Of a stretch of DNA of 60,958 bases, positions 17,441-54,452 are shown one piece after another (positions within the stretch are counted from its first letter, which is position 1; every line of letters begins with the position of its first letter). Source of the DNA: Candidatus Eisenbergiella stercoravium (GTDB lineage Bacteria; Bacillota; Clostridia; Lachnospirales; Lachnospiraceae); NCBI GenBank assembly GCA_019113175.1, contig DXHY01000032.1, positions 1 to 60,958 on the forward strand, given 5' to 3'. Position numbers and translations under genes: made by a program. The notes under the pieces were generated by a model. That model did not search any database, had not been told where the DNA came from, and saw only the letters and a program-made list of their open reading frames with translations.

Positions 17441-18418
17441 TCACGCGGTATCACCGATTTTCAGCTGAGGCGGCACCATTACAGTAACCGGCTGCGTACG
17501 CCGCTGGCTGATCCGGCCAAAGAGCAGTTCCAGCGCATTTTCCCATACATAATCGGGATACATTTCCAGACAAGTGCCAGTGGGCCATTTACTTTCCAGT
17601 GTTTGAATATCCTGATAGATAATAACCGCCACATCCTTCGGGATCCGAACCCCCAGTTCCCTGAAAGCGTCAAGAACGCCTTCCGCAACCTCATCGCTGC
17701 CCAGCAGCATGGCCTCAGCCAGGGTATGTTCCTCCACCGCTTTTTTTGCCAGACAATAACCACTCTCCCGGCTGATCTCTCCAACATGGAAGGTACGGGG
17801 ATCATACTGGCCGCGCTCCTGCAGAATTTTTTTAATGGCTGCCAGTCGATGAGTACCGATGGAACCATTCTGGCCATTATATATCCCGCCAATATAGCCA
17901 AGTCCTGTATATCGCTTCTGATCTAGCAGATATGAGACAACCTGTTTCTGTCCCTGGTCAAAATCTATCTGAACCTGATCAAACTCATAATTATTCTGAT
18001 TGGAATTGACAAATACGATGGCGTAGGAAAGTGACCGCAGAAAATCAATTTCCTGACTGGTAAAGATACCAAAGGCAATGATTCCGTCTACCTTCTGTAC
18101 CTCTCCGAAGGCCAGGCGCACAAAACTGACTTCATAGCGGTCAGTCATCATCTGCACCAGGCACGACATGGATGAAAGACGTATATTATGCCGGTCGGGT
18201 CTCACTATTCTCCAGTCTGCTACACCAATGATAAGATGTCTCTTATTTTCCGCCTCCCTGCGCTGACGTGGCGAAACATATCCGAGACTATGCGCTGCGC
18301 GGAATATTCTGGTACGAACCTCTGGGCTGACAGAAATATTGCTATCCTTATTTAATACTCGTGATACCGCAGCCACAGATACCTGAGCTGCCTGTGCGAC
18401 ATCCTTAATAGTTGCCAT
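17441..18418 (-). CDS. LacI-family regulator of the Phn-type operon
   Basis: This 325-residue protein has an N-terminal helix-turn-helix and hinge (TIKDVAQAAQVSVAAVSRVLN) and a periplasmic-binding-protein-like effector domain. It lies 79 bp upstream of phnD in the same direction and could be co-transcribed with it. Control of a PhnDCEE system by LacI rather than by the phosphate-starvation regulon is unusual. It suggests that the trigger is a carbon- or nucleoside-containing ligand. The consensus promoter at 18445-18472 and the dyad at 18488-18508 are its likely control region. Confidence 0.9.
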   Translation of the reverse strand: MATIKDVAQAAQVSVAAVSRVLNKDSNISVSPEVRTRIFRAAHSLGYVSPRQRREAENKRHLIIGVADWRIVRPDRHNIRLSSMSCLVQMMTDRYEVSFVRLAFGEVQKVDGIIAFGIFTSQEIDFLRSLSYAIVFVNSNQNNYEFDQVQIDFDQGQKQVVSYLLDQKRYTGLGYIGGIYNGQNGSIGTHRLAAIKKILQERGQYDPRTFHVGEISRESGYCLAKKAVEEHTLAEAMLLGSDEVAEGVLDAFRELGVRIPKDVAVIIYQDIQTLESKWPTGTCLEMYPDYVWENALELLFGRISQRRTQPVTVMVPPQLKIGDTA

Positions 18419-18508: not shown

Positions 18509-18570
18509 AACACATTTTGACTCATAATCGAGCCGTCAACAAAATCCTGTGGAAGAAATCCGTCCGGTCT

Positions 18571-18641
18571 GGTATAATGATTGCGCCCAGCGCAATCCGG
18601 CCCGATGCAATCGGGCCGCCCCGCTGTGCGGGGATTATACC
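18571..18641 (+). repeat. GGTATAAT element, copy A1: 71-base perfect cloverleaf
   Basis: The ends GGTATAAT (18571-18578) and ATTATACC (18634-18641) are perfect inverted repeats. Between them lie three perfect hairpins with no spare bases: 18579-18597 (8 bp, loop CCA), 18598-18618 (9 bp, loop GCA) and 18619-18633 (6 bp, loop TGT). The first TATAAT is preceded by TG as in an extended -10 promoter (TGGTATAAT). Another TGGTATAATT follows at 18667-18676. The element sits in promoter position for the kinase gene at 18773. Related copies are at 26686 and 54355. Confidence 0.85.
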
Positions 18642-18772
18642 CTCCAGGCCACAGCTTGTTCGCATGTGGTATAATTCTGAAGTATCATATAGGGAGGATC
18701 CTGTAGATGAAACAGCGGCACGAATGCACAAAATATAAAAGTAACTCAAATTGTATACAGGAGGGAACGGAT

Positions 18773-19639
18773 ATGCCCTGCCGGATTCCGAAAAAAATAG
18801 CCATGATCAACGACATCGCCGGCTACGGACGCTGCTCCGCCACCGAGTCGATTCCCATCATCAGCGCCATGAAGGTACAGGTCTGTCCGGTACCCACCTC
18901 CCTTTTTTCCAACCACACCGGATTCCCGGTCCATTTCATGCACGACTGTACGCCGTACCTGAGGGATTATCTGGCGAAATGGAAGGAGCTGGGCTTTCGG
19001 TTTGACGGGATTTACTGCGGCTTTCTGGGAAGCGCCGAACAGATCGGGATCGTGCAGGAATTTCTCGCCGGCTGGCCGGACGTTCCCTTCATCCTGGACC
19101 CGGTGATGGGAGATCACGGGAAGCCCTACCGGACGGTCACGCCGGAGCACTGCGAAGGATTGAAATCCCTCCTGTCTCGCGCGGCCATCATCACGCCGAA
19201 CATCACGGAGGCCTGCCTGCTGACGGACACCCCCTACCGGGAAAGCGGCTGGAAGCGGGACGAGCTCTGCCTGCTCGCCAGACAGCTTCACGCCATGGGG
19301 CCGGATAAGGTGGTGATCACGGGGCTTCGGGAAAATGAGGATTACATCAACTTCATCTCCGAGCGGACGGACGGGCTGACCACGGAGGTCAACCGGACCC
19401 ATTCCGCGGGCCATTCCTGGCACGGCACCGGGGATATCTTCGCCTCCATCATCGCGGCGGACGCGGTAAACGGCGTGCCTTTCGGGGAATCGGTGGAAAA
19501 GGCAGCTTCCTTTGTGCGCACCTGCATCAGCGCCTCCATCCGGCTGGGCATTCCGGAGCAGGAGGGCGTCTGCTTTGAAAATTTTCTCGCCCTGCTGGCA
19601 GACGGCAGCTTTCCTTCCGGTAAAACGGACGTGGAATAA
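18773..19639 (+). CDS. Pyridoxal/pyridoxamine kinase-like protein
   Basis: This 288-residue ribokinase-fold protein resembles PdxY/PdxK. An N-terminal INDIAGYGRCS replaces the usual S-H-V-G region. FILDPVMGDHGKPY is the vitamin-kinase signature, TPNITEACLLT binds nucleotide, and the anion-hole motif near residue 215 reads WHGTGDIFAS with the catalytic Asp. It would phosphorylate pyridoxal-type vitamers to salvage vitamin B6. The start at 18773 follows AGGAGGG; an upstream in-frame ATG at 18707 has no ribosome binding site. The A1 element supplies the likely promoter. Confidence 0.85.
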   Translation: MPCRIPKKIAMINDIAGYGRCSATESIPIISAMKVQVCPVPTSLFSNHTGFPVHFMHDCTPYLRDYLAKWKELGFRFDGIYCGFLGSAEQIGIVQEFLAGWPDVPFILDPVMGDHGKPYRTVTPEHCEGLKSLLSRAAIITPNITEACLLTDTPYRESGWKRDELCLLARQLHAMGPDKVVITGLRENEDYINFISERTDGLTTEVNRTHSAGHSWHGTGDIFASIIAADAVNGVPFGESVEKAASFVRTCISASIRLGIPEQEGVCFENFLALLADGSFPSGKTDVE

Positions 19640-26685: not shown

Positions 26686-26814
26686 GGTATAATGAGTGCG
26701 CGCAGCGCAGGCCGGCACAATGAAATCGTGCTGCACTCGCTCTATCGTGCTGCACTCGCTCTATCGTGCTGCACTCGCTTTATCGTGCCACCCCGCTTCC
26801 GCGGGGATTATACC
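26686..26814 (+). repeat. GGTATAAT element, copy A2, with internal 19-bp triplication
   Basis: The ends GGTATAAT (26686-26693) and ATTATACC (26807-26814) are inverted repeats. Inside are a TGCGC/GCGCA hairpin (26697-26709), a GCAC/GTGC hairpin (26715-26731), three tandem 19-bp units beginning GTGCTGCACTCG (26728-26784) and the CCCCGC/GCGGGG hairpin (26791-26806). TATAAT at 26688-26693 has TG at the extended -10 position and a -35-like TTGTGA 17 bases upstream, so the element plausibly carries the promoter of the VOC operon. Confidence 0.8.
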
Positions 26815-26838
26815 AGCAATCCACGGCTTGTGGAGAAA

Positions 26839-27117
26839 ATGCCGCCTTCGGCGGCGGAAGGAGAGGCGCACGAACCATGTTCGTGCTGAAGAACGGCCTG
26901 CGCCGTTCTTCCTTGATTTTTATGCCGCCTTCGGCGGCGGAAGGAGAGGCGCACGAACCATGTTCGTGCTGAAGAACGGCTTACGCCGTTCTTCCAGGAT
27001 TTTTATGCCGCCTTCGGCGGCGGAAGGAGAGGTGCACGAACCATGTTCGTGCTGAAGAACGGCTTACGCCGTTCTTCCAGGATTTTTATGCCGCCTTCGG
27101 CGGCGGAAGGAGAGGAA
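26839..27117 (+). repeat. Tandem array of the 83-bp hairpin/Shine-Dalgarno module (3 full + 1 partial)
   Basis: Units lie at 26839-26921, 26922-27004 and 27005-27087; 27088-27117 is a partial unit. Each has GCCGCC/GGCGGC, then GGAAGGAGAGG, then hairpin GCACGAAC/GTTCGTGC, then GAAGAACGGC/GCCGTTCTTC followed by GATTTTT, a weak terminator-like end. The partial unit gives the ribosome binding site of the VOC gene. Units differ by only a few bases, so the array expanded recently. In-frame translation gives only short peptides (MFVLKNGLRRSS...), which I do not call genes. Confidence 0.85.
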
Positions 27118-27498
27118 ATGAAACTGGATGCTATCCACCACGTTGCGATCATCGTATCCAATTATGAACGTTCCAGACATTTTTACGTCAATCTGCTCGG
27201 CTTTGAGGTTATCCGGGAAAACTATCGAAAGGAACGGGGCGATTACAAGCTGGATCTGAAGCTGGGCGACTGCGAGCTTGAGATTTTCGGTATTCCGGGA
27301 AGTCCGAAAAGGCCCAGCTATCCCGAGGCATGCGGTCTGCGCCATCTCGCCTTCCGCGTTTCCGACATGGATGAGGCAGTCTCCTGGCTCCATGGGCTCG
27401 GCATTGAAACGGAACCGGTACGGATCGATGAATTCACGCAGAAAAAAATGACCTTTTTCAAGGATCCGGACGGCCTGCCTCTGGAGCTTCATGAATAA
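27118..27498 (+). CDS. VOC (glyoxalase/bleomycin resistance) superfamily protein, YaeR/GloA2-like
   Basis: This 126-residue protein has one VOC domain made of two beta-alpha-beta modules. IHHVAIIV near the start provides the first metal-ligand His, RHLAFRVSD the second His, and PLELHE at the end the last Glu. The layout matches the YaeR/SMU1112c-like group, whose substrate is unknown. The start follows GGAAGGAGAGG of the repeat module; a longer frame that runs back into the repeat is artefactual. It overlaps nothing and leads a three- or four-gene operon. Confidence 0.85.
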   Translation: MKLDAIHHVAIIVSNYERSRHFYVNLLGFEVIRENYRKERGDYKLDLKLGDCELEIFGIPGSPKRPSYPEACGLRHLAFRVSDMDEAVSWLHGLGIETEPVRIDEFTQKKMTFFKDPDGLPLELHE

Positions 27499-51690: not shown

Positions 51691-54150
51691 CTATTTCAAA
51701 TGCTCCGTCCCCGCCTGCGGAATGCGGAACACCGTCAGCGAAAGGGCCGGAAATACGTAAGAAAAGCTTTCCGATTCCAGTGAGATGCTGCTTTTTGCAG
51801 GACTCACTGCCGTTGGCTGATCAAAGCTGTTTTCCTGCTCCGGTTTTCCGGTCATGGTGAAGATCTGCGCGGTGACGGGAAATTTCCGGGCTGCCGGAGT
51901 CTTTTCCCCGCCAGAACCATTTCGGTCATCTTCTTCCTTCCAGCCTTCCAGCCGGATCTGTGCGGTTTCCTCCCCTTCCTGCAGATTGACCACCTTCAAA
52001 ATCACGGAACCATCCGCCTCGTCCAGAGATGCGGCATAATACAGCCGTTCCACCTCCACCGGATTTTCCGTGACAGCGAGGTATTCCTCCCCATCGATAA
52101 ATACGGTAATACGGCAGTCCTTTACACGGATCTTCAGATCATAAACCCGGCCTTTTTCCGTCTGAAACCACCCTTCCGTCAGATCACAGCCCCGGCCTTT
52201 TACCTGTCTGTGAATGAAAAGGTCCAGATTCTGCCAGCCTCCGAAGGTGGCTGCCAGGTAATTCTCATCATCCTTCCAGCCGAACAGGATCTGGAAGCCC
52301 TTCCAGCCATCCAGCTCGCACGCCTTCAGAGAGATCTCATAATTTTCCCAGTCTTCATATTCCTCATGCTCCGCGCCGTCTGCACAACGCTCCAGCCAGG
52401 CATGCTCTCCCTTCTCCGTCTGGAAGTCTCCGAAGGCAAGGACTTCCTCCGTGTCCAGATTGCGGACGGAAACCTCCTCAAAACGGGAGTCCGTCTCATA
52501 GCCCTCCAGCCGGATCTTTCCTTTGTATTCAGGCGCCAGGCTGCTGACCACGCCGATTCCTTCCGCTGAAACGGAAAGCCTGCGGCTGCCCTGATGGTTC
52601 ATGAACAGCTTCTGCACATAATAGTTGGGCGTGCCGAAGGCCCTGTGGTTATCAAACCAGACCATATCCGGCTTCCAGTTCACATAAGATGCGTTTGCCA
52701 GCATGGGCGCATAGCAGGCCAGTCCCACGGAAGCGGCGTTGCGCTCCAGGGCAGTCATGTAAGAGGCCTCCACCAGCGCATTATACCAGGTGTTTCCCCA
52801 GGAAGCATACTCTCCCAGGAATACCTTCGGCCCATCCTTGGGGAAGGAATCGTAGCGGTGATGGTTCGCCAGAAACCATTCCGGCGCCATGTAATAATGC
52901 TCGTCGATGAGATCGCTTCCATTTTTCCGCGCGCTTCTCCAGCCCCGTTCATATTCCGTTCCGGCGGCGAATGGGCTCGCGGTGTTGATCAGCTTAATTT
53001 CCGGATACTTTTCCCGAACCGCGCGGTGGATCAGCTCATAACGTTCGAAGAAAGCGTCTCCGACCTCTTCGTTTCCGATCCCTAAGTATTCCAGCCCAAA
53101 TGGCGCGGGATGCCCCAGCGAAGCCCGGAAGCTTCCCCATTCGGTGTCCGTCCCTCCGTTTGCGAACTCGATCAGATCCAGCGCATCCTGAATCCATGGC
53201 CCCATCTCATCCAGAGGAACCATTCTCTGATGATGGGGATCATATCCGCCGGGAAGTACGGGAAGGGGCTTTGCGCCGATATCCTCGCAGAACTGAAAAT
53301 ATTCGTAATAGCCCAGTCCCAGCGTCTGGTTATAGCCCCAGTTGCTCCGTCTGGCCGGGCGGTTTTCCGGCTCTCCCAGCGTATTTTTCCAGCGGTACAT
53401 GGAATCCCGGTCCGACGGATTCAGGGAACCGTCATGCACCAGACAGCCGCCGGGAAACCGCATGAATTTCGGCTTCATGTCGCAAAGCAGCTGCGCGATA
53501 TCCCTGCGCAGTCCGTTTTTCCGTCCCAGGAAGGTTTTCTCCGGGAAAAGGGAAACATAATCCAGTGCCAGCCGTCCGGCTTCCGAAAGGGTCAGAAGCA
53601 GCCGCCCGGCTGTGGTGGTCTGCTCCGCGGTCAGACGCAGCTCATATTTTTCCCATTCCGGACTCCGCACCGGAATCGAGGCCAGGGCACAGCAGTCCTT
53701 TTCTTCCACGCTCACCGAAAGCACGCACTCCTGTTCTTCCAGCGCCCTGGCATAGCAGGTGAAAAGATAGGTTTCTCCCTTTTCCAGATAAAAGCCTTCT
53801 CCAAATCCCAGATTTGCAATCCCGGCACGGCCATTCCCCTTCGTTTCCATCACCAGGTAATGCGGGCTGTTTGCATGGTACGGCTGCGCCGTTTCGATCT
53901 CAAGCTGAACCTGCGCCCCTTCCTCCACCTTTTCCCAGGCGTAGAGGGGATGATACTTCGGATTGTCAATTTTTTCAAATTCAAAGGACCGGTTCTGCAC
54001 CATTTCCGCATACAGACCGCCGTCTGCGGCATGATTGATGTCTTCAAAGAAGATACCGAACAGGTCTCCCAGCGGCTCCTGCGGATGGGCAGTATCGATG
54101 GCGAGGATACTGCTTCCGGCTTTCTCTGCAATGTTGTCTGGATGATTCAT
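51691..54150 (-). CDS. GH51-type alpha-L-arabinofuranosidase
   Basis: This 819-residue enzyme has the GH51 layout: an N-terminal LFGIFFEDINHAADGGLYAEMV block, a carbohydrate-binding-like insert (about residues 80-210), FMRFPGGCL, the acid/base Glu in GIGNEEVG and the nucleophile Glu in VFLGEYASWG, then a C-terminal beta-sandwich with an extra LamG-like insertion (about 590-710). It releases arabinofuranose from plant polysaccharide fragments. No signal peptide, so cytoplasmic. The upstream A3 repeat element lies at its promoter position. Confidence 0.9.
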   Translation of the reverse strand: MNHPDNIAEKAGSSILAIDTAHPQEPLGDLFGIFFEDINHAADGGLYAEMVQNRSFEFEKIDNPKYHPLYAWEKVEEGAQVQLEIETAQPYHANSPHYLVMETKGNGRAGIANLGFGEGFYLEKGETYLFTCYARALEEQECVLSVSVEEKDCCALASIPVRSPEWEKYELRLTAEQTTTAGRLLLTLSEAGRLALDYVSLFPEKTFLGRKNGLRRDIAQLLCDMKPKFMRFPGGCLVHDGSLNPSDRDSMYRWKNTLGEPENRPARRSNWGYNQTLGLGYYEYFQFCEDIGAKPLPVLPGGYDPHHQRMVPLDEMGPWIQDALDLIEFANGGTDTEWGSFRASLGHPAPFGLEYLGIGNEEVGDAFFERYELIHRAVREKYPEIKLINTASPFAAGTEYERGWRSARKNGSDLIDEHYYMAPEWFLANHHRYDSFPKDGPKVFLGEYASWGNTWYNALVEASYMTALERNAASVGLACYAPMLANASYVNWKPDMVWFDNHRAFGTPNYYVQKLFMNHQGSRRLSVSAEGIGVVSSLAPEYKGKIRLEGYETDSRFEEVSVRNLDTEEVLAFGDFQTEKGEHAWLERCADGAEHEEYEDWENYEISLKACELDGWKGFQILFGWKDDENYLAATFGGWQNLDLFIHRQVKGRGCDLTEGWFQTEKGRVYDLKIRVKDCRITVFIDGEEYLAVTENPVEVERLYYAASLDEADGSVILKVVNLQEGEETAQIRLEGWKEEDDRNGSGGEKTPAARKFPVTAQIFTMTGKPEQENSFDQPTAVSPAKSSISLESESFSYVFPALSLTVFRIPQAGTEHLK

Positions 54151-54302
54151 GAAATATGTCTCCTTCTTTTTTTAATGCTGTGCAAAATCATCATATTTAT
54201 TGTTCTTCGCCTTCATAGCTTCCCTTTATCTTAAACTTCAAATTTAAAGAATTGATTCTGTGCCCTTTCTATAACCTGTTAAGGCATTATACCGCGTGCG
54301 CA

Positions 54303-54334
54303 CATGAGAAAGCGCCGCCGCAGGCGGTATTTTC
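54303..54334 (-). repeat. Single CCGCC/GGCGG hairpin of the module family, downstream of A3
   Basis: On the minus strand GAGAAAATACCGCCTGCGGC continues into a GGCGG...TTTCTC arm, forming a stem GAGAAA/TTTCTC around CCGCC/GGCGG. The same hairpin follows A2 at 26833, so A and B elements occur together twice. Another TATAAT-containing inverted half (ATTATACC at 54286-54293) lies just beyond. Confidence 0.7.
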
Positions 54335-54354
54335 TCATCAAGCCGCGGGTTATC

Positions 54355-54452
54355 GGTATAATCCCTGCGAAGCGGGGCGGCACGGTAGAACGAGTGCAGC
54401 ACGGTAGAACGAGTGCAGCACGGTAGAACGAGTGCAGCACAATCATTATACC
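54355..54452 (-). repeat. GGTATAAT element, copy A3, with internal 19-bp triplication
   Basis: Read on the minus strand, GGTATAAT (54445-54452) and ATTATACC (54355-54362) bound the element. It contains three exact 19-bp units starting GTGCTGCACTCG (variant TTCTACC ending; A2 has CTCTATC) and the CCCCGC/GCAGGG hairpin with one mismatch. TG precedes TATAAT as in A1 and A2. It points toward the GH51 gene. Confidence 0.8.

Follow-up and report, generated by a model that had tools for sequence, protein, structure and literature searches.

Short targets read by base pairing are described for the IS200/IS605 group: passages of one account (PMC5934647) state that IS608 inserts 3' of TTAC, and that TTAC stays in the left flank, where it is recognised through pairing with an internal guide. 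The element family reported here is similar to IS608, as those passages portray it, and to the small IS200/IS605 derivatives called PATEs, in its folded ends and in an arm complementary to the hexamer kept on its left. It differs in that its target is a promoter -10 box, and in that Y1 transposase was not found in five of the seven carriers, nor beside a copy; moreover, the IS608 guide is a tetranucleotide next to one hairpin, whereas the present arm has 6 to 8 bases and lies beyond three hairpins. REP sequences and REPINs with TnpA-REP (RAYT) are, in the parts of PMC8266576 and PMC3116915 that concern them, likewise small, non-autonomous intergenic palindromes in many copies, but here the Y1 gene is absent from most carriers and the copies form oriented arrays at -10 boxes; a GTAG-type motif was not noticed in the present element on unsystematic inspection. 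Pneumococcal BOX elements share with it a modular intergenic build, a variable number of units and predicted stem-loops, and sections of PMC3049150 report them as over-represented between convergent genes, whereas the present arrays face the start of a gene on the same strand; the two sets of modules are not alike in anatomy, a separation made by description and not by sequence. Correia elements and promoter-bearing MITEs are also short and lie upstream of genes, some with a sigma-70-like promoter, but in the present family it is the target site that is a -10 box, one being found on either side, and long terminal inverted repeats are missing; the passages of the MITE review in question (PMC10969869) treat promoter-bearing elements but no -10 box targeting.

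The window analysed, a stretch of 60,958 nucleotides from Candidatus Eisenbergiella stercoravium, holds one copy with a cloverleaf at 18571-18641 on the forward strand. A sequence-only reading had described these 71 bases as a perfect cloverleaf with hairpins of 8, 9 and 6 bp, 3-base loops and no junction bases, and coordinates and fold agree with it: the RNA fold has -45.3 kcal/mol (z -6.45), equalled by none of 200 dinucleotide shuffles, and the 131 bases around it, folded as DNA, reach z -5.77 (0/200 shuffles equal). The closing stem, formed by GGTATAAT (18571-18578) and ATTATACC (18634-18641) with zero unpaired junction bases, encloses hairpin 1 (18579-18597, 8 bp, loop CCA, conserved in alignment A1 described below), hairpin 2 (18598-18618, 9 bp, loop GCA, with both-sided changes at 8/9 pairs in A1) and hairpin 3 (18619-18633, 6 bp, loop TGT, seen in the fold and in A1). 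The extended -10 motif reported for the 5' arm is present as TGGTATAAT at 18570-18578. It has an exact second copy at 18667-18675, which the sequence-only reading leaves out, and ATTATACC is complementary to the left and right GGTATAAT alike, thus the repeated unit extends to 18675. Between arm and right hexamer (TATAAT, 18670-18675, 31 nt ahead of an ORF start at 18707) lies a shortened spacer (18642-18669) that keeps only an outer stem, CCACA at 18649-18653 and TGTGG at 18665-18669, of the ~60-nt spacer hairpin of full copies. The fold taken for the whole element is therefore real but makes up about half of a unit of ~131 bp, in which another conserved hairpin and another TATAAT follow. The downstream gene (18707-19639, forward strand) belongs to the phosphomethylpyrimidine kinase family (PF08543, 97.5 bits; "pdxK" below is a label only), and a LacI-type regulator gene (PF00356 and PF13377) lies divergently upstream at 17441-18418 on the reverse strand.

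In Rfam searches the window gave two tRNAs alone at the gathering threshold, none on the element, and four loci with copies, searched up to E 1, gave one weak match, elsewhere in L003 and off the element; the view that no named family has this form is in keeping with this. A terminator, a tRNA-like gene or a chance palindrome, which the strong GC-rich hairpins might bring to mind, has next to no probability given that no U-run follows the hairpins, the copies lie at gene starts, Rfam has no match on the element and copies are many. The last point and the shuffles bear out the earlier judgement that the fold is unlikely to have formed by chance.

In its full form the unit has ~131 bp and consists of the hexamer (TATAAT or TACAAT), hairpins 1-3, the internal arm ATTATACC and a spacer hairpin reaching the next GGTATAAT. 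The spacer, of ~60 nt, folds into a further hairpin, an imperfect one, with an outer stem (CCACG/CGTGG, CTACG/CGTAG or CTGCG/CGCAG) that leads into the next hexamer. Units are single or often tandem, with a period of ~131 bp; a minimal form of hexamer and hairpin 1 alone occurs at L216, L227, L245 and L246, and at L228, which lacks hairpins 2 and 3, the spacer hairpin comes straight after the -10-like hexamer and hairpin 1. Loops are mostly of three bases, a size that suits DNA hairpins. As for terminal inverted repeats, such as a MITE of a DDE transposon would have, the unit ends, GATTGCGC.. and ..CGCACGTGG, show in the alignment only a short TGCGC in inverse order. No autonomous long element appeared among 15 partial or odd places inspected, all being minimal, deleted or variant in appearance. 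The list of copies has 75 rows, some of which are alternative parses of a single copy.

Alignment A1 holds 30 of 33 non-redundant units, drawn from 40 found by a pattern that demands the arms, so that the 100% pairing of its closing stem arises by construction. In A1 98.0% of cells pair and changes on both sides occur at 21 of 51 pairs; the covariation score is 0.205, against 0.095 for shuffles and at most 0.070 for slid structures, and none of 500 shuffles reaches it. Contrary to these measures, a count of further pair types gave no excess over shuffles (327/500). The hairpin arms thus vary with compensation, the opposite of the uncompensated change that the sequence-only reading had named as refuting it. 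Cloverleaf cells comprise 910 Watson-Crick, 4 G-U and 13 mismatched pairs (n=927), and both-sided changes exceed one-sided ones in the cloverleaf (59 vs 4) and in the spacer (41 vs 7). That G-U pairs are so few in the cloverleaf (4/927, a share read without a tRNA yardstick) suggests that the fold is kept up in DNA and not in RNA; where covariation is strong but G-U pairs are missing, its source can be processes acting on the DNA instead of a functional RNA. If the arm is set against the right hexamer instead, 96.3% of cells pair, against 95.8% in shuffles, and covariation is uninformative there.

The same figures bear on the proposal that the repeat is a structured 5' leader, a functional RNA such as an attenuator or stability element, whose presence and absence would reflect loss and not insertion. 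Strong RNA folds, the orientation shared with genes and the fact that some loci are common to several species speak for it, but G-U pairs are very few, Rfam has no match on the element, near-identical copies lie at unrelated loci, and linkage sorts the 60 loci into 28 groups that are mostly small, 21 having one or two loci, although some have 5 and more. If transcription begins about 7 nt after TATAAT, an RNA from the left hexamer would lack the closing stem, as had been foreseen, but would start inside hairpin 1 and not carry all three hairpins. We regard such a leader as quite improbable.

Evidence for insertion comes from relatives without the element. Seventeen loci were sought and 15 were comparable; at 13 the element begins at a hexamer that is single in relatives, and occupied loci have a hexamer at both sides of the element, the second of which may stem from the target, as in a target-site duplication, or from the element. 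Flanks were scored over 25 bases without gaps in 60 chosen pairs of occupied locus and relative; the wrong hexamer was scored in L297, L295, L284, L272, L382, L369, L361 and L434, which were read by eye or left out, and the non-aligning stretches L299, L301, L302, L304, L307, L309, L312, L314, L433, L435 and L437 were left out. Best ungapped left-flank identities per 25 bases were 22 (MBL, ZnR, rapZ, RR), 21 (GT), 20 (pdxK), 19 (Glyc, ddl), 18 (ABC, HD), 17 (SGNH, RpiR) and 16 (rfbD); CYTH and L223g gave 10/25, and the CYTH flank agrees by eye with a shift of one base (ATGACA 17 or 18 bases upstream of the hexamer). The right flanks of 7 comparable loci agree closely at rapZ (25/25) and SGNH (24/25) and moderately at ABC (16), ZnR (15) and MBL (14), while pdxK (5/25) and CYTH (at most 10/25) lack ungapped agreement. 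The window's own site consequently rests on the left flank, where a relative without the element (L157) has a single TATAAT and 20/25 identical bases. The left hexamer at 18570-18578 thus corresponds to the native -10-like hexamer of the kinase gene, so the 5' arm of the closing stem is not simply part of the inserted element.

The single hexamer of relatives is as a rule TATAAT or TACAAT. The exceptions are rapZ, where relatives show at most GACAAT, next to a GGAGG that resembles a ribosome-binding site, and no clear -10 box; rfbD, with TAAAAT in most close relatives; three SGNH relatives without a hexamer at the site; and single relatives off the native type at Glyc (TACAAT in G006), HD (TAAAAT in G008) and GT (TAGAAT in G007). 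The WYL locus was dropped from the 17 because no relative was found. At the GNAT locus G007 and G009 were rejected as empty sites, and the locus was dropped, since both keep TACAATGATTGCGC and look like deletion remnants.

The idea that the repeat has to do with transposition is favoured by these empty sites at orthologous loci, and we think it probable, if by no means assured, that we are dealing with a small, non-autonomous piece of mobile DNA, or with arrays or remnants of it, whose insertion sites are promoter -10 hexamers (TATAAT or TACAAT, in many cases as part of TGnTAYAAT). Comparison of occupied and empty loci shows the insertion sites; on this reading the inserted piece runs from just after the native hexamer to the hexamer adjoining the gene, so that a -10-like box stands on both sides. 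Mobile elements must avoid damage to small, gene-dense genomes, and a repeat that lands in the most sensitive promoter bases and yet leaves a -10-like box on each side would, if this is true, be a striking answer.

The position of the copies was surveyed in seven Eisenbergiella genomes, in which 53 of 60 loci gave 54 arrays and 7 loci had no match at E 0.01 to the covariance model R1. The downstream gene lies on the array strand in 49 of 51 callable arrays, three arrays having no callable downstream gene, and the two exceptions are one orthologous locus with its gene 650 nt off. Three loci in this set (L218, L222, L238) have the called gene more than 1 kb away, and several ORFs reach back into the element. 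At the element start, TATAATGATTGCG (in the window 18577-18597, for example) contains an ATG from which a frame stays open across hairpin 1 (MIA.SAIR); downstream genes may therefore be stretched into the element by gene callers. The gene upstream of the 54 arrays is divergent in 31, co-directional in 18 and lacking in 5. At a further 23 loci, from named records or other genera and with a few mutual orthologues among them, the downstream gene is on the same strand in 21 of 21 callable cases. As judged from these counts, the arrays face genes in one orientation, and the genes downstream are mutually unrelated. For comparison, TATAAT occurs 41 times in the window, and 6 of these have a gene start on their own strand within the next 200 nt, by approximate gene calls (39 genes, 74% coding).

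The context of the hexamers could be read in 41 of the 54 arrays (L214 being out of register); orthologues are included here, as in the co-orientation count and in the comparison of arm and flank (42/54). Left hexamers carry some -35-like signal (score 3.12 vs 2.45 in shuffles, with at least 4 matches in 12/41 where 4.65 are expected), and TGn precedes 32/41 of them. Right hexamers have no -35 signal (1.78 vs 2.23 shuffled, n=41), and TGn precedes 23/41. It might be proposed, as for other modular repeats, that tandem -10 boxes and hairpins tune or switch the downstream gene via copy number, with mobility secondary. While the tandem units of ~131 bp and the TGn before right hexamers fit such a device, the missing -35 signal of the right hexamers and the unrelated downstream genes make it unlikely in our view. 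On the reading as a mobile element, the tandem arrays would arise by repeated insertion at, or duplication between, hexamers, and in Eisenbergiella, Mediterraneibacter and Claveliimonas some promoters come with at least two candidate -10 boxes; any effect on expression is our inference.

Two partners are open to the internal arm, the left hexamer, with the three hairpins enclosed, and the right hexamer, with the spacer hairpin enclosed; in the window it is a candidate guide. Base -1 before the hexamer was compared with the arm base opposite it in 42 first units: G-C is found 33 times, A-T 6 times, A-C twice and C-T once, so that 39/42 pair; base -2 is nearly constant and so tells little. Arms reading ATTGTA occur at three loci with native TACAAT (ddl, GT, HD) and the TATAAT-type arm at nine with native TATAAT (pdxK, CYTH, RpiR, MBL, ZnR, SGNH, ABC, Glyc, RR; ABC reads ATTATG); were arm types dealt at random, this 3/9 split would have a chance of 1 in 220 by our own arithmetic. 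Arm mismatches are found in L259, L233, L234 and L213. Complementarity of arm and flank is thus shown, and its use as a guide is putative.

The mechanism that we favour, a tentative one to which we give a little less than an even chance, is that the DNA addresses itself: single-stranded element DNA would fold, and the arm would pair with the strand exposed at a -10 box, like guide and target of IS608, which would give one orientation, a -10 box at both ends, tandem arrays by targeting of its own hexamers, and TACAAT as the address of ATTGTA arms. The -10 box is the DNA melted by RNA polymerase, and this melting could be what exposes the target strand. We infer both the single-stranded step and the guidance by the arm. 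If true, the family would offer a natural instance, with variation, of target choice guided by DNA, and one open to testing since arm and target change in step. Later on, template switching within the hairpins may keep the arms complementary and account for the compensatory changes; PMC8794818 reports that template switching can create and maintain perfect hairpins.

The same process underlies a competing account, namely that something else draws the element to the side of -10 boxes and that template switching in the hairpin afterwards rewrites the arm to the local flank, complementarity being a by-product. At RR the arm has TT against the native AA, which the empty G010 also has; between the orthologues of G006 and G000 the third base ahead of the hexamer differs, the arm differing accordingly with 9 or 10 bases matched; an arm that tracks its local flank in two orthologues favours local copying or correction, as do the near absence of G-U intermediates and the making and keeping of perfect hairpins reported in PMC8794818. 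Against it, the TACAAT-type units at the unrelated loci GT and rfbD of G005 are 98% identical and the relatives at GT have TACAAT, as if TACAAT-type elements choose TACAAT sites, which favours a match at insertion; furthermore, second units with A at base -1 retain a mismatched C (L141, L024). We hold such rewriting to be possible, though rather unlikely, as the source of the complementarity.

Spread within genomes is recorded in the units themselves: for 21 of 44, where 6.3 would be expected, the nearest non-orthologous copy belongs to the unit's own genome. Species also differ in which sites are occupied, and this, together with near-identical copies at unrelated loci, shows spread. The sole enzyme family searched, Y1_Tnp (PF01797), was not found in the carriers G000, G004, G005, G006 and G007 (81-95% complete) and is present in 19 of 32 genomes, including the carriers G008 and G009 and some non-carriers; 30 Y1 loci, with flanks of up to 1.5 kb, gave no R1 match, so that none of these Y1 genes lies beside a copy. 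A Y1 transposase was thus rejected as the present mover, having been found neither in five of seven carriers nor near copies; the mover may be extinct. We place the family among small palindromic mobile DNAs but in neither the IS200 nor the REP group, because this enzyme was not found in most carriers. A phage or plasmid origin was also set aside, a two-unit array having given no blastn match. Viral contigs hold 3 exact 16-base matches to the element.

A search for further copies in the genome and in related Lachnospiraceae had been suggested as a check, their lack in the genome being named as a refutation, and copies turned up in both. In its own genome a 131-base query has 19 BLAST matches, itself included, and the strict pattern TGGTATAAT-N40-70-ATTATACC matches 5 times, against 0 for the pattern read backwards. 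Carriers number 7 among the 31 genomes searched (its own and 30 relatives), all within the window's genus. R1 at E 0.001 matches 21 of 397 genomes of a sample of the family, with a best E below 1e-18 in six, the own genome included, and weak matches among the 21 may be due to chance. Among the matches listed, strong ones also fall in Mediterraneibacter, Claveliimonas and Fusicatenibacter records, and named strains with copies include C. monacensis DSM 108991 and M. glycyrrhizinilyticus An427, so the family is not merely an artefact of MAGs; the survey of named records took in 92 of the 112 named loci among the matches listed. Among the open-licence papers listed in the literature searches none was seen to describe the family.

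R1 finds three copies in the window, all of them upstream of a same-strand gene. The second (26686-26892, forward strand, 50.9 bits) is degenerate and has a 19-bp tandem repeat inside (26725-26788). The third (54286-54452, reverse strand, 89.2 bits) has a complete spacer hairpin and a short tandem repeat in place of hairpins 1-2, and lies upstream of an alpha-L-arabinofuranosidase-family gene (51691-54150, same strand). The short repeat (~19 bp, TGCTGCACTCG..), at 26725-26788 and at 54382-54440 on the reverse strand, replaces or extends hairpins 1-2, and pieces related to it occur in L215 and L137. A hairpin-rich 83-bp tandem repeat of 3.3 copies with 97% matches occupies 26839-27115 and ends in GGAAGGAGAGG right before an ATG at 27118, so that a ribosome-binding-like sequence lies inside the repeat; similar sequence is found upstream of the CYTH gene in G006 (L296). 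A different palindromic repeat (GGTCTGCGCA..TGCGCAGACC..) lies ahead of genes in several Eisenbergiella genomes (L223, L306, L418, L431), and in a Rikenellaceae contig (L093, 22-201) pairs of GGTATAAT..ATTATACC enclose a different body.
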